Of a DNA stretch of 64,000 bases, positions 2,374 through 56,789 are shown piece by piece. The notes under the pieces were generated by a model, which was not told the origin of the DNA, made no database searches, and saw only the letters and a program-made list of their open reading frames with translations. Position 1 is the stretch's first letter; every line of letters begins with the position of its first letter. The translations under genes were made by a program, and so were the position numbers. Source of the DNA: Hymenobacter sp. CRA2 (GTDB lineage Bacteria > Bacteroidota > Bacteroidia > Cytophagales > Hymenobacteraceae). The stretch covers positions 248,001 through 312,000 of the forward strand of contig NZ_MVBC01000002.1 of assembly GCF_002007105.1 (NCBI RefSeq), read 5' to 3'.

Positions 2374-3396
2374 TCACCGCCGCAGCTCCCGCACCACGGC
2401 CATGATCTGCTCGTCGGTGCCGAGCAGCAGCAGCACGTCGCCGGAACCGGGGCGAAAGTCGGCGGCGGGGCTGACCTGGAACTGGCCGGTGCGGTCCTTC
2501 AGCCCGATGACGGTGGCGCCGGTACGCGAGCGGACGTCCAGCTCGCGGATGGAGCGCCCGCGCAGCTCGGGGCGCAGGTCCTGGTAATCCAGCTCTTCCA
2601 GGCGCAGGCGGTTGGGGCCCAGGCCGCTGATCATTTCCAGGAAGCGAATCACCTCGGGGCGCATCACCAGGTTGGCCATGTGCGAGCCGCCGATTTCGTC
2701 GGGCATCACCACCGAGTCGGCGCCGGCGCGCAGCAGCTTGGTTTCGGAGGTTTTGAGCGAGGCGCGGGCAATGATTTTCAGCTGCGGGTTCAGCTCGCGC
2801 GCCGTCAGGGTCACGAACACGTTGTCGGCGTCCTTGGGCAGGGCCGAAATCAGCGCCCGGGCCCGCTCGATGCCGGCCTGGCGCAGGGTGTCGTCGGCGG
2901 TGGCGTCGCCGCAGATGACGGGCACGGCCGCGTCGCCGAGGGCTTCGGCGTGGGCGCGCATCAGCTCCTGGTTCTGCTCGATGATGATGACTTTGGCCCC
3001 GTTGGCGCGCAGCTCGTGAAAGGCCTTGCTGCCGTTGCGCCCAAAGCCGCAGACGATGACGTGGCCCTGGATGTGGCGAATTTCCTGATCGGTCATAAAC
3101 ATCTTGAAAAGGGTGCGCAGCTCGCCATCAAATAGGTACTGGGTGAGCACCGACACGAGGTAGGCCACCACCACCAGGTTGTACATGATGTAGAGCGAGA
3201 CGAACAGCCGTCCGCCGCCGGACAAGGGCTTGACTTCGCCGAAGCCGGTGGTGCTGACGGTGATAATCGTCATGTAGAAGGCCTCCATGAAGGTATAGCC
3301 CTCGATAATCATGAAGCCCGCCAGACCGATGCCCAGGCTGAGCACCGTCAGGATAATGGCCAGCATGAGCCGGCTGAGGTTGGCGCGTTTCCACAT
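2374..3396 (-). CDS. Potassium channel with RCK (TrkA-N/TrkA-C) domain
   Basis: A 340-aa inner-membrane K+ channel of the MthK/TrkA-N type. After the start (MWKRANLSRL) comes a first membrane helix, a pore loop with selectivity filter TTGFGE (the family usually has TVGYGD, so this is a variant), and a second helix. A Rossmann NAD-binding RCK domain follows (HVIVCGFGRNGSKAF, then EQNQE and GDATADDTLRQAGI), then a C-terminal RCK_C domain (about 260-340) that usually binds a ligand gating the pore. The ATG at 3396 is preferred over 3423 because a TACCTTCG -7 box (3408-3415) lies inside the longer version. Probable role: gated K+ flux; the ligand is not predictable. Confidence 0.9.
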   Translation of the reverse strand: MWKRANLSRLMLAIILTVLSLGIGLAGFMIIEGYTFMEAFYMTIITVSTTGFGEVKPLSGGGRLFVSLYIMYNLVVVAYLVSVLTQYLFDGELRTLFKMFMTDQEIRHIQGHVIVCGFGRNGSKAFHELRANGAKVIIIEQNQELMRAHAEALGDAAVPVICGDATADDTLRQAGIERARALISALPKDADNVFVTLTARELNPQLKIIARASLKTSETKLLRAGADSVVMPDEIGGSHMANLVMRPEVIRFLEMISGLGPNRLRLEELDYQDLRPELRGRSIRELDVRSRTGATVIGLKDRTGQFQVSPAADFRPGSGDVLLLLGTDEQIMAVVRELRR

Positions 3397-3538
3397 AATG
3401 CGTGGCGCGAAGGTAGCGGGCAACGCGGCTAGTTCGCACCTGAGCTTCCGGGCACGAGTATCGGCCGCCCCGGCTTGCCTGCAAGCCCTATTTGTGCGTA
3501 TCTCGCAGCCACTTTCCTATTCCAAAGCACTTTATCAG

Positions 3539-4711
3539 ATGTCATTTACCCCCAAGCGTTTGTTGTTCGTGCTGGTCGGCTTGTATCTGCTTTACCTGGC
3601 GGGCGGCATTGCGCTGGCGTCGCAGGGCGTTGTCGACCGCGTCTACTTCTTCCCCGGCTTTTCCATCAAGCGCCCCCATTCCGATCAGTCGGCTTTCTCG
3701 CCCGACGGCCCGCTGGTGCACTACCTCCCCGACGGCGCGGCCCTGAGCCGGTGCATCGTGCCGCAGGGCTCCGGCTTCGCGGTGCGGCTCGATACGCTGC
3801 GTCGCCCCACCGATTCGCTAACCTGCTTCGTGCAGGAAACCGGGCTCTCCTTCCGCTTCCCGCGCCACGCTTTCACTACTGAGGCCGCGGAGTATCCGGC
3901 CCCGGCCCGCATGCTGGTGGTGTCCGACATCGAAGGCAACTTCAAAGGGCTGCAACAGCTGCTACAAGGTGCGGGCGTGACGGATGCTCAAGCGCGCTGG
4001 CGCTTCGGCACGGGCCACCTGGTGTTCGTGGGCGACATGTTCGACCGCGGCCTGCAGGTGACCGAGTGCCTGTGGCTGCTCTACAAGCTGGAGCACGAGG
4101 CCGCGCAGGCCGGCGGCAAGGTGCATTTCCTGCTCGGCAACCACGAGGTGATGAACCTGACCGGCCACTACAAGTACCTGCGCCGCAAATACCGCAAGAA
4201 CGCCGACTCGCTCGGCGTCGACTACGCCCGCTGGTACGCGGCCGACACGGAGCTGGGGCGCTGGCTGCGCACCAAGAATGCGGTGGAGCGCATCGGCCCG
4301 ACCTTATTCGTGCACGGCGGCCTGAGCCCGGAAGTAGCCGCGTTGCAGCTGCCCCTCGCGCAGCTCAACGACCTGACCCGTCGGAGCATCGACGCACCGG
4401 CCACCACTGATCGGAGCGCCGCGGAAAAGCTCATTCGCAACCCCAAGCTTAGCCCCGATTGGTACCGCGGCATTGCACAGGAAGAGGCCCCGGCGGCGCA
4501 CGTGCAGGCGGTGCTGCGGCAGTACGGCGCCACGCGCATGGTCATTGCCCACACCCCCGTAACGGAAATCAAGCCGCTCTACGACGGGCGCGTGGTGGCC
4601 ATTGACCTGCCGCACCAGGAGCACACCGGCCAGGGCTTTATGCAGGCGCTGTGGGTGGAGGGCGGAAAGCTGTCGGTGGTCGACGACAAGGGCCGGAAGC
4701 GGGCGTTGTAG
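3539..4711 (+). CDS. Calcineurin-like metallophosphoesterase
   Basis: 390 aa starting MSFTPKRLLFVLVGLYLLY, with an N-terminal hydrophobic segment acting as signal anchor or signal peptide. The metal-binding blocks of the calcineurin-like family are all visible in order: SDIEGN (normally SDxHG, so E replaces the common H), VGDMFDRG, LLGNHEVM, and IAHTPV near the C-terminus. The architecture resembles the Shewanella-like/bacterial PPP phosphatases, and the N-terminal segment suggests action in the periplasm or at the membrane. A phosphoprotein or phosphoester substrate is inferred from family only. The next gene follows 40 bp downstream on the same strand. Confidence 0.85.
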   Translation: MSFTPKRLLFVLVGLYLLYLAGGIALASQGVVDRVYFFPGFSIKRPHSDQSAFSPDGPLVHYLPDGAALSRCIVPQGSGFAVRLDTLRRPTDSLTCFVQETGLSFRFPRHAFTTEAAEYPAPARMLVVSDIEGNFKGLQQLLQGAGVTDAQARWRFGTGHLVFVGDMFDRGLQVTECLWLLYKLEHEAAQAGGKVHFLLGNHEVMNLTGHYKYLRRKYRKNADSLGVDYARWYAADTELGRWLRTKNAVERIGPTLFVHGGLSPEVAALQLPLAQLNDLTRRSIDAPATTDRSAAEKLIRNPKLSPDWYRGIAQEEAPAAHVQAVLRQYGATRMVIAHTPVTEIKPLYDGRVVAIDLPHQEHTGQGFMQALWVEGGKLSVVDDKGRKRAL

Positions 4712-47972: not shown

Positions 47973-50900
47973 TTATTTTGCTTCTGCCCGAGCCCCGAGC
48001 AGCGCCTCCAGGGCCTTCAGGCGCTGGGCCAGGTCAGCGGTTTGCGCGGCCTGGGTTTGCAGCGAAGCCTGCTGCTGATCGAGGCGGGTGCCTTGCGTCT
48101 GGTTTTGCTGACGCAGCGCGGCGTTCTGCTTTTGCAGCTCGGCCACCTGCCGGGCCAGCTCCTGCGTGGCCGAGACGTTGAGCATGGCCAAAGCTTCGTA
48201 ATCAACGGTGCGCACATCGGCGTGCTCCAGCCCAAACACGAACACCTGCTGCCCGGCCAGCTGCCGCGCCCCGCGCACGACGAGGGTGTTGCCGGTCGCA
48301 GCCTTCACGGTGCCCACAATTTCACCGCCCGCACTGATAAGCTTGAGACGCTGGCCGGGTTGGGCGGCCGCGGCGGGAGCCGCCGGCAGCGTCAGTACCA
48401 GCAACGAATCTGCCCGCGTTTCAACCTTAACAGCCGCCGCGTAGATATCGGGCAGGAAGCCGGCGTGCTGATTCACGGCCTGCGGAAACACCTCCTCCAC
48501 TTCCTGGGCAATGACCTTCTTGAAGCGGCGCTGCCCGTACTGCACCCGGTCGCGCATCTGGTAATCGGTGATGCGCAGCTGCTGGAGCAGGGCCAGGTCT
48601 TGGGCAGCGTTGCTCAGGCCGATGATGGACTTGAGGCGGCGGTCAGAAGTAGCGTTGAACTCCGTGGCCAGCACCCGGCCGGTGGCGCGGATGCTCACCG
48701 GCCCGGCGTTGTTAGAGGCATAGCCCGTAGACCCACCGCCGTTGAGGTAGCCGTAGTTGAAGTTGGCGGGCGTCACCGAGCGCTGCACGTCCAGCGGGTA
48801 AGCGGGGTTGGTCGTGCCGATGCCCACGTTCGTACCGCTGAAGGTCATGTAGTTGGCGCCGCCCGGGGTGGGGCCGTCCGACAACTTGAGCTTGTAGCCG
48901 TCGCCCGCATCCAGACCGAAGGAAGCCCAGGCATTGCCGGGCGAGTGCACCACCATGTAGGGGCTGTTCTGGCGGATTTCCAGCGGTCCGTTGGGCAAAG
49001 CGGCGTTGCTAAAGCCCGTGCCGATGCCCAGCCGGCCGTTTTTGAGCACCATTTGCTGCGTGCCCCCGCCGGTGTCGAACTGGCCATTGGCGTGCGAGCC
49101 GCCGGCGTACCAGGCAAAGGCCTCGCCCGAGCGGAAGTACTGCGTGCCATCCTGCACCCCGACGCCATAATCAGCATTCCACAGGCTCAGCATCTGCCGG
49201 GTGCTGGCCCCGAAGCTCAGCGTGCCGCGCACCTGCTGGTTGCCATTCACATCGAGCAGCGCCGCGGGGCTGGTAGTGCCGATGCCCACCCCGCCCGCGC
49301 CCTTGGGCATCAGGTTCAGGTCTTGGTCGGCGTTGGAGCCGGCGGCGTAGAGCGAGTTGTAGCCGATGCCCACGCCCTGCGTGCCGTTGTAGTGCCGAAA
49401 CTCCGCCCCGCCAGCGGCCTGGTCGAAGTCGCCGGTGACGTACAGCGGCCGGCCCGTGGCGTGCGTGCCCGAGCGGGCCGCCGTCGTTTGCACGTCTAGG
49501 CGGTTGCCGGGCGTGCCGTTGCCCGTACCGATGCCCACGTTGCCGTTGCTCTCGATGCTCACGTTGGGCGTGGTGCCCCGGTCGTCGTCGGAGTAGAAGC
49601 GAATGGGCGCCTGATTGGTGACCAGGCGCAGGAAGTTGCCGTTCAGGCGCGAGTACAGCCCCAGGTCGGAGGTGCTGGTAATGGCTGCTCCACCGCGCTG
49701 AATCACGCCGGCCGGCAGCAGCAGCCCGCCGCCGCCGCTTACGCTCAGGCCCTCGGTACCGCCGTTGCCCACCAGCTGGTTACTGGCCAGGTTCAGGTTT
49801 TGCGTGGCCGTGTGGTTGCCCAGGTTATCGGCCCCGGCCGGCAGCGTGACGGTATTGCCCCCGCTGATGCCCAGCGTCAAGCCGCTGATGGTGAGTTCGG
49901 GCAGGGCCTGGGCGGCGAGTTGGCCGCTGGCGTCGGCTGTGACCATGCGCGTGCCGCTGCCGGCCAATCCGTCGATGCGCGCCGCGCCGGCCACGTGCAG
50001 CTTGGCTTGCGGACTGCCCGTGCCGACGCCCAAGCGGGTGGAAGCGTTGTCCCAAAATAACTGGCCCGCGTTGCCAACGAGCTTGCTGCCGTCGCTGAAG
50101 ACCACGCTGCCCGCGGCCTGCGAGGTAGTGGCGTTATTGAGGCTGATAACCGGCGCTTCAGGCTGAAAGCTGAAGCTCAGGCGGGCGTAACCCGCCCCGT
50201 TCTGGTAGCCCTGGGTGTGCGTTACGTTGCTGGTCAGCGCGGGGTCGGCGTAGGAGGAGCCCCCGCCGGCTCCGGCGTTGCCGTGGCTGGCGCCGCCGCC
50301 GTAATAGCCGCCCCCGCCGCCCGCCGCGCCCCAACTGGTGCCGCCGGTCAGGCCGGCGCCCACGCCCAAGCCGGCCGGGCTCGTGCCGCAGTAGCAGAAC
50401 TGCTGCGGCGTGCCGCCCGTGGTGCCGCCGGCCGATTGGGTACCGCCGGTGCCGGGCACCCCCGTCGGGTTGCTCGCCGTAGGCACCAGGCCGTCGCCGC
50501 CGGTCAGGCCCCCGCCGGGCCCGCCCCGGGCGTAGTAGCCCGAGCCGCCGCCGCCGCCGGCCACCAGCACCCGGTGGGCGAGGCCCGTGCCACCGATCCG
50601 AATGTCGGTAGCGCCGCCGCCCGGTTCGCTGCCGCGGCCGCCGCCGTTGTAGCCCCCGTCCTGGTACAGCGTACTGGGGTTATAGCCCCGGTCGCCGCCG
50701 ACTTCAATGGTGAGCACCTGCCCCGGCGTCACCGCCAGCGTGGCCTGCACCCGCCCCCCCCGGCCACCCCGGTAGCAGTTGCTGCAGTTATCGATGGTTC
50801 GGCCGCGGGCCCCGGCCAGATCTACCTGCACGCTGGTCACGCCGAGCGGCACGGTCCAGGTCTGCGGGCCGCCGGTGTAGTTGAAGGTCACGGCCTGCGC

Positions 50901-51527
50901 ACCGCTGGCGCTGGCGGGCAGGCCCTGCACCGGGTCGGACCAGTAGAAGCCGTTCCAGGTGTTCAGCTTGGCCGCATCGGTGTTGTAAATGGTCAGGCCC
51001 ACGGCTGGGCTCCGAATGGCGTCGCGCTGGGCCGTGGTCATACGCGGCGGCAGAAAGCCCTTACTGGTTGAACTCAGTTCGAGCAGAGCCGAAGCGTTCG
51101 GCGCGGCAGTACCAATGCCTACCTGGCCGCTGTTGCTGATGCTCAGGCCCTCGGTGCCGCCGTTGCCCACCAGCTGATTACCGGCCAGGTTCAGGTTCTG
51201 CGTGGCCGTGTGGTTGCCCAGGTTGTCGCCGGCGCCGGTGGGGCTCAGGTAGGTCCAGCTCGTGCCGGTGTAGTACCAGAAGCCCAGCTGCACGCCGTCG
51301 GTCTGGTACACCAGCAGGCCGGTGGCGGGGCTGCCGATGGCCGCGCGCTGGGCAGCCGTCATGCGCGGGGCAAGCAGGCCCTTGGTCACCGACGACAGAT
51401 CGAGCACGGCGGAGGCATCGGGCGAGGTGGTGCCAATGCCCACGCTGCCCGTGGATTGGGCACGGACAGCAAAAGTTAGTCCCAGGCCAGCGGCCAGGGC
51501 GCAGGTATACCGTAATAGTTTGTGCAT
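47973..51527 (-). CDS. Large surface protein with S74 intramolecular chaperone
   Basis: 1184 aa from the ATG at 51527 with signal peptide (MHKLLRYTCALAAGLGLTFA). The body has repeated SVGIGTTSPDASAVLDLSS-type segments seen in Bacteroidota 'tail-fibre-like' surface proteins, and a Gly-rich domain (about 240-470, e.g. VAGGGGGSGYYARGGPGGG). Near the C-terminus, ATSDRRLKSIIGLSNA carries the Ser/Lys pair five residues apart used for self-cleavage by the endosialidase-type (peptidase S74) chaperone, followed by KKVIAQEVEEVFP. A coiled coil ends it. It likely trimerises, cleaves off its chaperone and acts as an adhesin. No T9SS tail is seen. It is not flanked by phage genes. Confidence 0.88.
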   Translation of the reverse strand: MHKLLRYTCALAAGLGLTFAVRAQSTGSVGIGTTSPDASAVLDLSSVTKGLLAPRMTAAQRAAIGSPATGLLVYQTDGVQLGFWYYTGTSWTYLSPTGAGDNLGNHTATQNLNLAGNQLVGNGGTEGLSISNSGQVGIGTAAPNASALLELSSTSKGFLPPRMTTAQRDAIRSPAVGLTIYNTDAAKLNTWNGFYWSDPVQGLPASASGAQAVTFNYTGGPQTWTVPLGVTSVQVDLAGARGRTIDNCSNCYRGGRGGRVQATLAVTPGQVLTIEVGGDRGYNPSTLYQDGGYNGGGRGSEPGGGATDIRIGGTGLAHRVLVAGGGGGSGYYARGGPGGGLTGGDGLVPTASNPTGVPGTGGTQSAGGTTGGTPQQFCYCGTSPAGLGVGAGLTGGTSWGAAGGGGGYYGGGASHGNAGAGGGSSYADPALTSNVTHTQGYQNGAGYARLSFSFQPEAPVISLNNATTSQAAGSVVFSDGSKLVGNAGQLFWDNASTRLGVGTGSPQAKLHVAGAARIDGLAGSGTRMVTADASGQLAAQALPELTISGLTLGISGGNTVTLPAGADNLGNHTATQNLNLASNQLVGNGGTEGLSVSGGGGLLLPAGVIQRGGAAITSTSDLGLYSRLNGNFLRLVTNQAPIRFYSDDDRGTTPNVSIESNGNVGIGTGNGTPGNRLDVQTTAARSGTHATGRPLYVTGDFDQAAGGAEFRHYNGTQGVGIGYNSLYAAGSNADQDLNLMPKGAGGVGIGTTSPAALLDVNGNQQVRGTLSFGASTRQMLSLWNADYGVGVQDGTQYFRSGEAFAWYAGGSHANGQFDTGGGTQQMVLKNGRLGIGTGFSNAALPNGPLEIRQNSPYMVVHSPGNAWASFGLDAGDGYKLKLSDGPTPGGANYMTFSGTNVGIGTTNPAYPLDVQRSVTPANFNYGYLNGGGSTGYASNNAGPVSIRATGRVLATEFNATSDRRLKSIIGLSNAAQDLALLQQLRITDYQMRDRVQYGQRRFKKVIAQEVEEVFPQAVNQHAGFLPDIYAAAVKVETRADSLLVLTLPAAPAAAAQPGQRLKLISAGGEIVGTVKAATGNTLVVRGARQLAGQQVFVFGLEHADVRTVDYEALAMLNVSATQELARQVAELQKQNAALRQQNQTQGTRLDQQQASLQTQAAQTADLAQRLKALEALLGARAEAK

Positions 51528-51584: not shown

Positions 51585-51644
51585 CAAACTTCCCTGCAGT
51601 GCAGCTACATTTCCAACTATATTCTGTACCGCATTTGGGGGTAT
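51585..51644 (-). promoter_or_regulatory. Operator-promoter of the S74 gene
   Basis: The 20-bp element TGTACCGCATTTGGGGGTAT (51625-51644, read here on the plus strand) is identical to one at 53101-53120. On the minus strand it is followed after exactly 8 bp by TTG (51614-51616), a -33 element, then after 21 bp by GAAGTTTG (51585-51592), a weak -7. The element has TACC/GGTA ends. The fixed spacing to the -33 box is what a transcription activator would need. Confidence 0.55.
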
Positions 51645-51739
51645 TGGCAACCTAGGCCGCCGGCCCCGGCACGGCTGCAGCGGTCGGGCTTAAGCCGACT
51701 ACGCAGTAGCATAAACTCAACTCATTGATCATCAAGCAA

Positions 51740-51769
51740 GCAGGCCCCGCCAACACTGGCGGGGCCTGC
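51740..51769 (-). terminator. Hairpin after the T9SS cargo gene
   Basis: Perfect 13-bp stem GCAGGCCCCGCCA/TGGCGGGGCCTGC with loop ACAC. The following minus-strand sequence (TTGCTTGATG) is only weakly T-rich, so termination efficiency is uncertain. Confidence 0.6.
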
Positions 51770-51790
51770 CGGCAATCCGTGGCACTGACC

Positions 51791-52990
51791 TTATTGCCGC
51801 AGTAGCTTTATCGTCGCTTGGTGCGTGCCTTGCTGCACGCTGAGCGTGTACAGCCCCGGGCTCAGCGCGGCTGCAGCGGAAGCGGGCAGCGTGGCAGTTC
51901 CATTCACCAAAGGCAGCGGCTGACTCAGCACCGTCCGGCCGAGGCCATCCTGCACCATCAGGCGCACGGGCTCGCCGGCTTGGGCACCGGGCAGCGCCAG
52001 TTGCAGGGGCTGATCGGCCGCCAGCGGGTTGGGCCAGGCCTGCCAGCCGGCCGTTAGCAGATTGGCCTTGCGGGCGGCCAGCACACTGCTTTCGACGGAG
52101 TAATCGGCGGCTACCGGCGTGCCAAACCGGCTGGAGCTGTAGTACAGCTCCAGCAGCGGCTGGGCCGAGTTGTTACGCCAGAACTGGTCGAAGTACGTCG
52201 TGCTGACGGCCCCCTGCTGCAGGTTGAACGCCGCCAGCAGCGTGGCCGGGGCGGGGCTGCCGTTGAGGTAAATGCTGTCCTGCCGAATGGTGCGGCTGCG
52301 CACCTGCAGCACCGCCAGCGCGTCGGAGCCGGTGCTGCGGCCCGCCACCGGGATGCGCACCGTGCCCCAGCCGGCCACCGAGTCGACGTAGGTGTAGCGC
52401 TGCACCAGCAGCAGCGGGGCCCGGTTCAGGCTGGCCAGCTGAATGGTGAGGCTGCCCGTGGTGGCCACGCGGAACGAGCGGCTCAGCCGCCCGCCCGCTG
52501 TTAGCGGCAGCGGGAAGTTCACCACGCCGCTAGGGCCGTACGGGATGCTTTGGCGGTTAATCACCGCCGAGTCGTTGGCCCCACCCGTCAGCAGCGCCAG
52601 CGACGCGGCCTGCCGGGAAATGGTACGGCCCAGGTTCAGCCAGCCCGTCGGGGCCAGGGCGCCGTAGCCGACGTAGTCGTAGGCCAGGCGGCCGAACGTG
52701 GCCTGCCGGTCGTAGGCCCACTGCGCCCCGGCAATGCCGCCTGTAGCCGGAGCGGGCAGGCGTGTCACGTTGTACGGCAGGCCAGTCGGCGTCAGGGCGC
52801 GGAAGTCCCAGGCTTGGTTGGCGCCGGTAGCCGTAGCCCCGATGCTGCCGGGAATGTTGGCGTCCTGGTAGCGCTCCACCGTAGCCGCCGACGACGGAAA
52901 GGAAGCTTGCGTCAGCGTAATCGGCGACTGGGCCAGCGCCGCGGGCACCACGAGCAGCGTCGTGGCAGTCAACAGGGTAAATTTGGGCAT
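51791..52990 (-). CDS. T9SS-exported protein of unknown function
   Basis: 399 aa with signal peptide (MPKFTLLTATTLLVVPAALAQ). The body is beta-rich, with repeated Tyr/Ser-rich strands. The last ~80 residues are a T9SS type A sorting domain: WQAWPNPLAADQPLQLAL, then VRLMVQDGLGRTVLSQ and LYTLSVQQGTHQATIKLLRQ. So it should be exported to the surface or medium. No catalytic motif or known family is seen in the N-terminal 320 residues. Start at 52990 was chosen as the only one that gives a signal peptide. Its promoter carries the same operator as the S74 gene. Confidence 0.88.
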   Translation of the reverse strand: MPKFTLLTATTLLVVPAALAQSPITLTQASFPSSAATVERYQDANIPGSIGATATGANQAWDFRALTPTGLPYNVTRLPAPATGGIAGAQWAYDRQATFGRLAYDYVGYGALAPTGWLNLGRTISRQAASLALLTGGANDSAVINRQSIPYGPSGVVNFPLPLTAGGRLSRSFRVATTGSLTIQLASLNRAPLLLVQRYTYVDSVAGWGTVRIPVAGRSTGSDALAVLQVRSRTIRQDSIYLNGSPAPATLLAAFNLQQGAVSTTYFDQFWRNNSAQPLLELYYSSSRFGTPVAADYSVESSVLAARKANLLTAGWQAWPNPLAADQPLQLALPGAQAGEPVRLMVQDGLGRTVLSQPLPLVNGTATLPASAAAALSPGLYTLSVQQGTHQATIKLLRQ

Positions 52991-53061
52991 AGAGGAAAGA
53001 ATTAAGGATGAGGATTCAGAATCAGGCGAGCCGGGCAGCCGGGCCGCACCGTTAGGGGCCG

Positions 53062-53120
53062 CAAAAGTATTCCCGGGCTGCTGGCTCGACAATCGGGTCT
53101 TGTACCGCATTTGGGGGTAT
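53062..53120 (-). promoter_or_regulatory. Operator-promoter of the T9SS cargo gene
   Basis: Operator TGTACCGCATTTGGGGGTAT at 53101-53120; 8 bp below it on the minus strand lies TTG (53090-53092); 20 bp further is TACTTTTG (53062-53069), a perfect -7. The operator lies between this gene and the response-regulator gene (start 53165), 44 bp from the latter, so it may serve both. Confidence 0.6.
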
Positions 53121-53164
53121 GCCCCGGGTTGCGCTTTTCCCGCCCCCGGGCGTCCTTTGCCATC

Positions 53165-53803
53165 ATGAATACTCCCATCAGGCTGGCATTGGTCGAGGAC
53201 GACCCGGAGGTGCGCGCCCTGCTGCACGGCTACCTGTGCCGCCAGCCCGAGCTTAGCTGCGTGTTGCTGGCCGATTCGGTGGAAAGCTTTCTGCAGCAAC
53301 TGCCCGATCTGCTGCAGCCGCCGCAGGTGATTCTGCTCGACATCCACCTGCCGGGTATGAGCGGCCTGGAAGCCCTGCCCCTGCTGAAGCAGCGCCTGCC
53401 CGAGGCCGACGTGGTGATGCAAACCGTATTCGACGACGCTGACCGCATCTACCGCGCGCTGTGCGCCGGGGCCAGCGGCTACGTGCTCAAAAACACGCCC
53501 CTGGAAGAGCTGAAAGCCGCCGTGCTGGAGGTGTACCGCGGCGGCGCGCCCATGAGCCGGGCCGTGGCCCGCAAGGTGCTGGCCCACTTCAAGCCTACCC
53601 CCGCCGTGCAGCCCGATCTGCTGTCGGAGCGGGAACGGGAGGTAGTCGTGGCCATTGTGGATGGCCTGAGCGACAAGCAGGTAGCCGCCCGCTTGGATCT
53701 GTCCGTTGAGACGGTGCGCACCTACGTAAAGCGCATCTACAAGAAGCTACAGGTAGGCAGCCGCACCGAGCTGGTCAGCCGCCACGCCCGCGGTCAGCTC
53801 TGA
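53165..53803 (+). CDS. NarL/LuxR-type response regulator
   Basis: 212 aa. Receiver domain with acidic pocket EDD (11-13), phospho-acceptor Asp59 in VILLDIHLPGMSG and the conserved Lys in YVLKNTP. A LuxR-type HTH follows (LSEREREVVVAIVDGLSDKQVAARL and SVETVRTYVKRIYKKLQV, about 148-205). It binds DNA as a dimer when phosphorylated. Its gene is convergent to the histidine kinase gene next door, with which it most likely pairs. Upstream it shares an operator region with the T9SS cargo gene. Confidence 0.92.
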   Translation: MNTPIRLALVEDDPEVRALLHGYLCRQPELSCVLLADSVESFLQQLPDLLQPPQVILLDIHLPGMSGLEALPLLKQRLPEADVVMQTVFDDADRIYRALCAGASGYVLKNTPLEELKAAVLEVYRGGAPMSRAVARKVLAHFKPTPAVQPDLLSEREREVVVAIVDGLSDKQVAARLDLSVETVRTYVKRIYKKLQVGSRTELVSRHARGQL

Positions 53804-53939: not shown

Positions 53940-55712
53940 CTACTCCACCGGCACCGCCAGCCGCACGCGGAAGCCGCCCTGGCTACTAGGCTCGGCCGTG
54001 ACGCTGCCGCGCAGCGCGGCGGCGCGCTGCTGCATGTTGCGCAGGCCCATGCCGCTGCGCGTAGCAGGCGCTACGGCCTGCCCGTCGTCGTCGATGGTGA
54101 GCAGCAGCTGATCCTGCTGGCGCGACAGTCCCACGCGCAGCTGGGTGGCCTGCCGGGCATGGCGCACGGCGTTGGTCACAGCTTCCTTGAACACTAAGTA
54201 CAGGTGCTGGCGAATTTCGGGCGTCAGCGGCTCGCAATCGGTCAGGCCGCGGGTAACGAGCTCGGTGTTGAGGCCGGCCGGTCCGGCGGTCTGATCGAGG
54301 TGGTCCCGCATACGGTCGAGCAGGGCTCCCACGGTGTCGGCCTGCGCATCGATGCTCCAGACGATGTCGCGCATGGTGCTGGCGGCGGCGCGGCTGTTGG
54401 TCAGCAGCCGGTCCAGCGCCGGGTCGGCCTGGGGATGGCCCTGGCGCAGCAGCTCGGCCTGCAGGTTCACGCGGGTGAGCAGCGTGCCCACTTCGTCGTG
54501 CAAATCGGCGGCGATGCGGTTGCGCACGCGCAGGGCGGCAGCCGTAGTTTCGAGGATGTGGCGGGCGCGCTGGCGCACCATCACCAGCACCAGCATCAGG
54601 GCGGCGCCGGCCAGCACCGCCAGAAAGATGGTGGTGCGGCGCGTCAGCTCGGCCTCGCGCAGCCGGGTGCGGGCTTGCAGGTCGGCAATGCGCTGCTGTT
54701 GCTGGGTAAGCTGCTGCTCTTTCTGCTGGGTGTCGTGCAGGGTTTGCAACTCGCGGGCGTGGCGGGCACTGCCCTCCTCAAACAGGCTATCCTGCAGCAC
54801 GGCATAGCGCCGCTGGTGCTGGAGCGCCTCGCGGTAGCGGCCGAGGTGCTCCAGTGCCGGCACCAGGGTTTCCATCACGCTCATTTCGTCGTGCAGGTGA
54901 TGGGTGGCGCGGCTGAGTTGCAGGGTGGTTTCCAGTACCCGCGCCGCGTCGGCGTAGCGGCCCTGATGAAAGGCCAGCGTGCCTTTCAGTCCATCCAGGA
55001 AAATCTGCGTGCCCGCGTGGCGGGGCAGTGGGTAGGCCGCATAGGCTGAGTCGAGCCGCTGGGCCATCAGCGGGTACTGGCGTTGCCTGGACGCAATGCC
55101 AGCCAGGTTGCCATATTCCACGGCTACGTTGCCGGTGTCGCCGTCAGCCCGGGCCAGGCGCAGCGCCTGCCGGTAGCAGTGAATGGCCAGCGGGTAGTCG
55201 GCGGCCACCTCGGCGCAGCAGGCCAGGTTGGTGTAGATGCCCGACAGTTCATCGTGCCCGGCGGCGGTGCGGCGCGGCACCAGGCGCAGGGCCTCGCGGC
55301 CGTAGGCAATGCCTGGCTGCGGCTGCTTCAGCAGGTAGTACGAGTAGCAAAGCCATTCGCAGGCCACGGCAGCGCGCAGGGAGTCGCCGTCTTCCAGGGC
55401 CATGCGCCGGGTTTGCAGCATCTGCAGGATGGCCAGGCTGGGCTGATTTTCGTGCAGGTAGTGCCCGGCCAGGTTAGCCAGAAGCTCGGCCCGCACCGCC
55501 CGCGCTAGCTTAGGTTGCCGTAGCAAGCCGATGACGACCGGCGCGGTAACGGGCGTCACCGAGCCACGGGCCATGCGCAGCTGCACGGGCAGCGGCCAGC
55601 GCTGCAGTTGCCGCAGGCTATCCAGCGCCGGTGGTCCTGCCTGCACCTTCCCGGCAAACCAAAGCAAGCAAAGGATGCACAGGGCCGGGGTGAGGCGGGC
55701 AAGACGGATCAT
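53940..55712 (-). CDS. TPR sensor histidine kinase (NarX-type)
   Basis: 590 aa. Signal peptide, a periplasmic TPR-like sensor region (about 60-330), a coiled coil rich in Gln (QTLHDTQQKEQQLTQQQQ), one membrane helix near 361-385, a HisKA_3 domain with H405 in RIAADLHDEVGTLL, and a HATPase domain (EAVTNAVRHARQA, IDDDGQAV, GMGLRNMQQRAAALRG). It autophosphorylates and should hand the phosphate to the adjacent NarL-type regulator. A TAACTTGC -7-like box lies 4 bp before the ATG. Confidence 0.93.
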   Translation of the reverse strand: MIRLARLTPALCILCLLWFAGKVQAGPPALDSLRQLQRWPLPVQLRMARGSVTPVTAPVVIGLLRQPKLARAVRAELLANLAGHYLHENQPSLAILQMLQTRRMALEDGDSLRAAVACEWLCYSYYLLKQPQPGIAYGREALRLVPRRTAAGHDELSGIYTNLACCAEVAADYPLAIHCYRQALRLARADGDTGNVAVEYGNLAGIASRQRQYPLMAQRLDSAYAAYPLPRHAGTQIFLDGLKGTLAFHQGRYADAARVLETTLQLSRATHHLHDEMSVMETLVPALEHLGRYREALQHQRRYAVLQDSLFEEGSARHARELQTLHDTQQKEQQLTQQQQRIADLQARTRLREAELTRRTTIFLAVLAGAALMLVLVMVRQRARHILETTAAALRVRNRIAADLHDEVGTLLTRVNLQAELLRQGHPQADPALDRLLTNSRAAASTMRDIVWSIDAQADTVGALLDRMRDHLDQTAGPAGLNTELVTRGLTDCEPLTPEIRQHLYLVFKEAVTNAVRHARQATQLRVGLSRQQDQLLLTIDDDGQAVAPATRSGMGLRNMQQRAAALRGSVTAEPSSQGGFRVRLAVPVE

Positions 55713-55777: not shown

Positions 55778-56725
55778 TTACTGGTGCACCACCGTGTAGG
55801 GCACGCGCACCCGGAAGGTGGTATCCTGCCCGTAGTACTTGCCGCTAATGGTGCCCTCCCACACCGCCGGGCCGGGCGGCTGGTTGGCCGGTATCGGAAT
55901 TTGCACCTGACCTTCTCCCCAGCCCCCGGTGACGGGCACCGGCTGGCCGTTAGCTGTCATACGCAGATTCCGCAAACGGCTTTCGGAACGCACCAGAAAC
56001 AGGCGGGCGCGGTAAGTACCGCCGGCCGGCACCCAGTTGCTTTCGGACACGGCAAAAGCGCCAATTCGGGCCATGTCGTGGTGGTGGCTGCCACCCATAA
56101 TCTGGAACTGGCGCATCACGTCTGTTTCGCGCTGCAGCACCTGCGCTTCCAGCTGCGCCAGGCTGAGCAGGGCCGCCGCCACGGGCGTATCATTGAAGTA
56201 AAACTGACTGAAGGACAACTTCTTTACTTGCGCCAAGGCCGGACCATGCAGCCGGATTTCCTCCGCCGGGCTGGCCCCGAGCCGCACCGGCGCCGGCGAC
56301 AACTGCTGCACATACTGACTGTACGCCCGCAGCCGTTGCTGCAGCGTGTCGGCCGATATCCGCGCGGGCTTTTCGGGCAGCATCAGGCCACGGACCTCGC
56401 GCTCGGCCGTGAGGGTGCGCGCTTCTGCGTCGTTATCGGTGGACGCCAGCAGTTGGTGCCGGGTGTCGTCGAAGTAGCGCCGCAACGTTTGGGTGCGGGT
56501 GTGCAGTTGAGTAGCTTGGGTAACTATCGCGCTGTCCTTGGGCTGCCAGCCGTTACGCTCCGCTTCCGCCCGAATTTCCCAGACCGTGTAGCCGTTGGTG
56601 CGGTCGGCCTGCTCGTTATAGTTCCGCAGGCTGTGCTCGGCCAGACTGAGCTGGGCCAGTTGGGCATCGGTCATGCCAGTGCAGCTGGCTAAGATCAGCA
56701 GCACCGCTGCGGTAGCTGACTGCAT
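55778..56725 (-). CDS. GldM-like putative lipoprotein
   Basis: 315 aa from the ATG at 56725 (MQSATAAVLLILASCTGM), which gives a lipobox LASC; an ATG at 56746 is also possible. N-terminal half is long helical (HSLRNYNEQADRTNGYT; TQATQLHTRTQTLRRYFD). The later part resembles the first periplasmic domains of the gliding-motility protein GldM: PVAAALLSLAQLEAQVLQRE, then FAVSESNWVPAGGTYRARLF and a beta-rich end. True GldM is about 510-530 aa with a membrane helix that carries proton flow; those parts are missing here. So this is a truncated paralogue or a component of unknown job. Similarity is from memory and should be tested by a profile search. Confidence 0.6.
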   Translation of the reverse strand: MQSATAAVLLILASCTGMTDAQLAQLSLAEHSLRNYNEQADRTNGYTVWEIRAEAERNGWQPKDSAIVTQATQLHTRTQTLRRYFDDTRHQLLASTDNDAEARTLTAEREVRGLMLPEKPARISADTLQQRLRAYSQYVQQLSPAPVRLGASPAEEIRLHGPALAQVKKLSFSQFYFNDTPVAAALLSLAQLEAQVLQRETDVMRQFQIMGGSHHHDMARIGAFAVSESNWVPAGGTYRARLFLVRSESRLRNLRMTANGQPVPVTGGWGEGQVQIPIPANQPPGPAVWEGTISGKYYGQDTTFRVRVPYTVVHQ

Positions 56726-56789
56726 GGAAGCAGTAGAAAAAGTCACTATACAAACGGGTTTATACTTGCTTGATAACGCGCAGCGCGGC

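Follow-up and report, generated by a model that had tools for sequence, protein, structure and literature searches.

The locus considered here lies in a 64,000-nucleotide stretch of the genome of Hymenobacter sp. CRA2 (contig NZ_MVBC01000002.1), referred to below as the window. An identical 20-bp element stands before two surface-protein genes and beside the gene of a response regulator, which raises the question of whether this element is the operator of that regulator and how the neighboring genes would be controlled from it. The original prediction envisaged an undescribed surface-remodeling regulon run by the adjacent TPR kinase and regulator. The element is probably the operator of the adjacent NarL-type regulator, which would activate its own gene and the adjacent surface genes from a position of about -54, and this reading is held here with considerable confidence. 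The features concerned are as follows, with relatives denoted by L (loci) and G (genomes) numbers throughout.

47973 to 51527, minus strand: gene of a 1184-aa surface protein, the S74 target gene (glycine-rich domain PF12810, ALK_LTK_GRD, 1.6e-25; PF13884, 31.3 bits, cut-off 22; start codon picked by eye)
51585 to 51592, minus strand: -7 box GAAGTTTG of the S74 promoter, TAnnTTTG-like, with a 21-bp spacer to the TTG (box position after the part of PMC9723704 consulted)
51614 to 51616, minus strand: -33 TTG of the S74 promoter, exactly 8 bp from operator copy 1
51625 to 51644, minus strand: operator copy 1, upstream of the S74 surface-protein gene, with half-site TGTACCGCA on the promoter side
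51740 to 51769, no strand assigned: perfect 13-bp inverted repeat (loop of 4 nt) lying between operator copy 1 and the cargo gene
51791 to 52990, minus strand: gene of a 399-aa probable T9SS cargo protein, a target gene (TIGR04183 match below cut-off)
53062 to 53069, minus strand: -7 box TACTTTTG of the cargo promoter, with a 20-bp spacer to the TTG
53090 to 53092, minus strand: -33 TTG of the cargo promoter, 8 bp from operator copy 2
53101 to 53120, no strand assigned: operator copy 2, common to two divergent promoters
53129 to 53131, plus strand: -33 TTG of the regulator promoter, exactly 8 bp from operator copy 2
53152 to 53159, plus strand: -7 box GTCCTTTG of the regulator promoter, with a 20-bp spacer, ending 5 bp before the ATG at 53165
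53165 to 53803, plus strand: gene of the NarL/LuxR-type response regulator, the predicted operator-binding protein (Pfam Response_reg 7.5e-19, GerE 9.7e-17)
53940 to 55712, minus strand: gene of a TPR-containing HisKA_3 histidine kinase identified by its Pfam domains, convergent with the regulator gene and its predicted partner by synteny

The layout on the minus strand is as the original prediction had it: the 20-mer occurs at both places, exactly 8 bp separate each copy from a TTG, the -7 boxes follow after 20–21 bp (21 bp for the S74 gene and 20 bp for the cargo gene), and copy 2 lies 44 bp before the regulator ATG. The plus-strand promoter of the regulator at copy 2 had been overlooked. 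Since 8 bp and a TTG are found on both flanks of copy 2, one operator would serve two divergent promoters; the other flank of copy 1, when its sequence was read, held no such promoter. The inverted repeat between the cargo gene and copy 1 is a possible terminator that would split the S74 and cargo transcription units. The regulator transcript is predicted to start near 53164, giving an almost leaderless mRNA. Between the regulator's -7 box and the ATG lie 3 to 5 nt in the window (53152–53165) and in L046–L054, L056–L058, and L172, with a few nt more in L055, and the regulator mRNA should therefore be leaderless or nearly so in those species. In Flavobacterium psychrophilum, according to the part of PMC9723704 consulted, the -7 box spans -12 to -5 and leaderless mRNAs account for only 5.5%.

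The regulator consists of a receiver domain followed by a LuxR-type HTH (Response_reg 68.4 bits, cut-off 30.2; GerE 60.8 bits, cut-off 23.5) and is of the NarL/FixJ (LuxR-HTH) class by its domains, with Asp59 and Lys109 invariant across eight aligned regulators. The kinase lies above the Pfam cut-offs for HisKA_3 (39.5 bits), HATPase_c (46.4 bits), and TPR_12 (35.3 bits). The original prediction had named a large S74 surface protein as a served gene, and its S74 domain (chaperone of endosialidase, PF13884) indeed scores above the cut-off. The T9SS label of the second served gene is plausible from its family, in which 8 of 9 aligned members match TIGR04183 at E ≤ 0.1 (best 1.1e-5), although the 399-aa protein on its own reaches 14.8 bits against a cut-off of 23. 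A 322-aa protein encoded at 55778–56746 adjoins the kinase gene; it holds only the first and second domains of GldM and is a shortened PorM/GldM-like protein, scoring 91.9 bits where the equivalog cut-off is 180.

The genome scan that had been proposed for the 20-mer, at up to 3 mismatches, returned only the two window copies from the 5,879,518-base genome (5.88 Mb), and the backwards control returned none; in the window, where shuffles lead to an expectation of 0.00, the same two copies are again the only matches. The original prediction would have suffered from a lack of other copies, and a third genomic site was found (L178; G000, contig C1, 2479–2498, TGTACCGCAAATGGGGACTA), although it emerges with a looser core and has a weak promoter. 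This site stands on another contig, 73 bp before the ATG of a gene (2572–3849) for a 425-aa protein with S74 and YadA-head domains (PF13884 54.8 bits, cut-off 22), and thus probably serves another S74/YadA-head surface protein. It has AGC in place of the -33 TTG and a degenerate -7 box, TAGCTTGC, at the same distance from the operator; lacking the TTG and with this -7 box, it may be weak or inactive. Seven S74 matches are found in the genome, and the operator precedes two of these genes. Four of the seven fall within about 13 kb of contig C1 (271–13420; matches at 1756, 3424, 7095, and 13262), and among those four genes only that at 2572–3849 has the exact operator core before it. A large genome-wide regulon is not supported, as the operator with a TTG 8 bp away gives two exact matches, both already known. 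With up to 3 mismatches, the same pattern gives 112 matches against 94 in the backwards control, and weaker sites are therefore indistinguishable from chance.

The regulator and the element occur together across relatives. The survey covered 204 genomes of the inferred family, Hymenobacteraceae, with the best candidates for the regulator, at most 15 per genome, being scored. A regulator at least 80% identical is found in 16 of the 204 genomes, and the exact core TGTACCKCAWWTGNGG in 20, comprising 15 of those 16 and 5 of the 188 others (Fisher P about 1e-17, in which independence is overstated, the genomes being related). In the sixteenth genome, G060, a copy of the core with one mismatch adjoins the regulator; a site precedes the regulator gene in 16/16 genomes, and in G060 and G084 it departs from the core at one position. 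Among eight genomes of the same genus, the 20-mer at up to 3 mismatches is found in five, and these same five have a regulator at least 86% identical; the other three have neither the 20-mer at up to 3 mismatches nor a regulator above 49% identity. The locus is conserved in four same-genus relatives, where the operator between the regulator and the divergent gene keeps 8 bp to the TTG on both sides while the intervening letters differ. An S74 homolog, the regulator, and the kinase lie together within about 17 kb in all 15 relatives and in the window, and a cargo homolog at least 56% identical is found in 10 of the 16 loci, the window included. In the six loci without a close cargo homolog (L048, L056, L057, L058, L172, and L173), an S74 homolog takes the divergent position over the operator. 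Co-occurrence by itself does not name the binding protein, because the S74 and kinase genes also travel with the regulator and the genomes are related. Relaxing the core pattern to one mismatch was tried as well and dropped as uninformative, since 161 of the 204 genomes then match and the controls give counts of similar magnitude.

The distance between the element and the promoter is likewise kept across genomes. Exact matches to the core amount to 41 entries and 39 distinct sites, all of which were read, and 34 of them lie in the 15 regulator-positive genomes. In these genomes, a TTG lies exactly 8 bp from the TGT end in 25 of the 34 sites and at 8 bp on the other side in 14 of 34; TTTG stands at an offset of 34–36 on at least one side in 31 of 34, against a background in 20 such loci of 1.2% for TTG and 0.8% for TTTG. 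The copies are thus placed at a fixed promoter distance, and are not scattered without relation to promoters, the outcome that the original prediction had named as adverse. The three exceptions to the TTTG geometry are L184 and L185, which are without a promoter and look like chance matches, and L178, which has a degenerate -7 box. Five sites lie in genomes without an 80% regulator; two show the geometry (G115 and G117, with best regulator matches 59% and 55% identical, the G115 assembly being 81% complete), and the other three are read as chance. Sites away from the locus precede genes for a phage-tail-collar protein (L040) and a 1193-aa T9SS protein (L180, G115). Non-surface genes are faced in L179 (DUF6934 protein) and L181 (a weak, below-cut-off metallo-beta-lactamase match), and the L182 and L183 sites lie at contig ends.

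The element is, judged from its letters in relatives, a putative NarL-like 7-2-7 dimer site. L060 and L061, from two MAGs whose loci are almost alike, show the ideal form: 9-bp arms (TGTACCGCA and TGCGGTACA) enclose 2 bp, the site lies between two divergent S74-gene homologs, and either side has the same flank of 8 bp followed by TTG. Inverted 7-base half-sites with a 2-bp gap are perfect in L060, L061, and L177 (the last reading CCTACCGCATTTGCGGTAGG), and the perfect dyad of some relatives reads TACCGCA-TT-TGCGGTA, whereas the halves in L055–L057 and L173 read TACCTCA and TGAGG. In the window copies, the left heptamer TACCGCA is perfect, whereas the right half-site (TGGGGGTAT) is a poor match to the ideal TGCGGTACA, its TGGGGGT agreeing by inspection with TGCGGTA at 4 of 7 positions. 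The dimer site suggested originally from the TACC/GGTA ends is supported by the perfect dyads of relatives, one half being degenerate in the window itself. A single specificity residue for the TACCTCA group was considered and rejected: a change of V to T or A is present in L056, L057, and L173 and absent in L055 and L058.

The NarL heptamer consensus is TACYYMT, from which TACCGCA departs by inspection at positions 5 and 7, so that the architecture is NarL-like but the site is not a NarL site. In Escherichia coli, a NarL dimer binds inverted 7-base elements with a 2-bp gap, and yeaR-yoaG can be activated from one 7-2-7 NarL site alone, placed just upstream of the -35 element, according to the part of PMC7419079 consulted. 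The Hymenobacter operator resembles NarL operators (yeaR-yoaG, ogt) in the 7-2-7 layout; by contrast, its promoter is of the Bacteroidota -33/-7 type with a predicted centre near -54, and its targets are surface proteins, with nothing linking them to nitrate.

Furthermore, a sister regulator, 57–62% identical, appears from the sequences beside it to use another dyad, placed equally far from TTTG. This second dyad, TGTACCCTRWTYAGGG, occurs in 9 of the 204 genomes, against one match in the backwards control. A regulator in the 57–62% band is found in 22 genomes, which include all nine with the dyad; the other 13 are without an exact dyad, and the band probably mixes several paralogs. By coordinates, 8 of the 9 dyad genomes have a copy no more than about 135 bp upstream of the paralogous regulator. 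For the paralog dyad TGTACCCTGTTTAGGGTACA, TTTG stands at 35–36 on at least one side in 19 of 20 distinct sites, and a TTG at 8 bp is found on only 3 of 40 sides. What lies on the TTTG side in L063 and L064 is a divergent gene of 178 aa instead of the regulator. At 14 of the 20 sites, an ORF of at least 500 aa reads away within 450 bp, and a fifteenth (L213) looks spurious. Seven such large proteins were scanned: that of L208 (11620–15543) has TIG/FG-GAP domains and those of L220 and L216 have RCC1 repeats, the L208 and L220 proteins giving T9SS-tail matches below the Pfam cut-off. The other four have no informative domain, and carry a GIGTxTPN-like motif after a signal-like stretch, as in S74 proteins. 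The recognition helix reads TVH in the regulators beside the TACCCTG dyad and TVR in the window; TVH was rejected as a lone specificity mark, as L062 also has TVH and yet a different upstream repeat, and the relation is a correlation only.

These results support the computable steps of the proposal that the adjacent regulator runs a regulon, namely co-occurrence, spacing, the dyad in relatives, and the S74 targets. In the mechanism favored here, the convergent TPR kinase probably controls the regulator, a pairing predicted from synteny, and a regulator dimer would occupy the 7-2-7 dyad, ideally TACCGCA-NN-TGCGGTA, through one perfect and one degenerate half in the genome's own copies. The operator centre would fall at about -53.5 for the regulator and cargo genes and at about -54.5 for the S74 gene, just upstream of the Bacteroidota -33 element, where the bound dimer would activate transcription by polymerase contact. 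Such contact is favored because the operator adjoins the -33 element without overlapping it and because the operator-to-(-7) distance is kept where the -33 is lost. Placement upstream of the promoter elements is also what an activator site would show. Copy 1 would serve the S74 gene and the third site probably another S74/YadA-head gene, with a presumed role at the cell surface; divergent copy 2 would serve both the cargo and regulator genes, and this shared site implies positive autoregulation. The same regulator might instead repress transcription from the same operator, or activate it in one direction while repressing it in the other, since a single site between two divergent promoters is a layout also used by dual regulators and autoregulation may be negative. 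This is unlikely, however, as the site overlaps neither the -33, the -7, nor the predicted start and lies at equal distances on both sides, and as the -33 TTG is dispensable while the distance from the operator to the -7 box is kept, as in activator-dependent promoters.

It is less probable still, and indeed quite doubtful, that the operator is bound by a different transcription factor encoded elsewhere, with the neighboring regulator a bystander. The varying distal half-site would suit such a factor, as would the two genomes that keep a site with promoter geometry without an 80% ortholog, but the co-occurrence (15/16 against 5/188 genomes), the site before the regulator gene in every one of the 16 genomes, and the pairing of a diverged paralogous regulator with a diverged dyad just upstream in 8 of 9 genomes all argue for the neighbor. 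The identity of the two 20-mers, 1.5 kb apart, could also recall a recent local duplication or conversion without a regulatory role; as the exact repeat found by a repeat search spans 20 nt only, another contig carries a third copy of the core, and the element with its 8-bp spacing is kept across species while the letters between differ, this explanation was rejected and has next to no probability.

Regulators of the NarL type and 7-2-7 sites are already known kinds, as are two-component systems that control surface genes. In Porphyromonas gingivalis, FimR directly binds and activates the promoter of the surface-appendage gene mfa1 (PMC1974823, in the part consulted), in which a word search found neither "palindrom" nor "direct repeat." FimS/FimR is similar to the present pair as a Bacteroidota two-component system over surface genes, the regulators being likened by description; by contrast, its targets are fimbriae and not S74 proteins, and the window kinase reaches 28.1 bits (residues 155–349) against the FimS model NF053520, far from the equivalog cut-off of 600. 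PorX/PorY of P. gingivalis is a two-component system linked to the T9SS whose regulator binds the porT promoter, as described in the part of PMC8050853 consulted; by that description PorX governs genes of the secretion machine, whereas the predicted targets here are surface proteins encoded beside the regulator. Searches of open-licence papers brought up, among the titles listed, none on this operator, on S74 regulation in Hymenobacter, or on paralogous NarL-type operators in Bacteroidetes. The present regulon is likewise absent from those titles, as is the question of how soil Bacteroidota control their S74 and giant T9SS surface proteins. The analysis names an operator and a regulator and predicts three promoters within a single window.

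The two paralogous regulators each go with a matched operator, different in the two cases but at an unchanged promoter position, and they constitute a natural test of DNA-level insulation of duplicated two-component systems, and this part is likely to be the most interesting to specialists. The operator types seen so far are TACCGCA, TACCTCA, and TACCCTG. It is an even call whether paralogous TPR-kinase/NarL-regulator pairs form an expanding set in this family, in which every pair has a 7-2-7 operator to itself at one fixed -7 distance and drives its own regulator along with very large S74 or T9SS surface proteins of its own; such pairs would be insulated, swappable surface programs in which regulator and operator diverged together. 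For remoter paralogs of the regulator, 49–51% identical (L022, L027, L030, and L017), an imperfect palindrome, approximately CGCATCATCATGCG, lies a few dozen bp before the start codons and suggests further operator types. Two inverted copies of other sequences also stand before the regulator in L062 (CCCTGTTTAGGGGTAGGG) and L070 (CTATCCCCAAAATGAGGAC), and these are possible operators of further paralogs.
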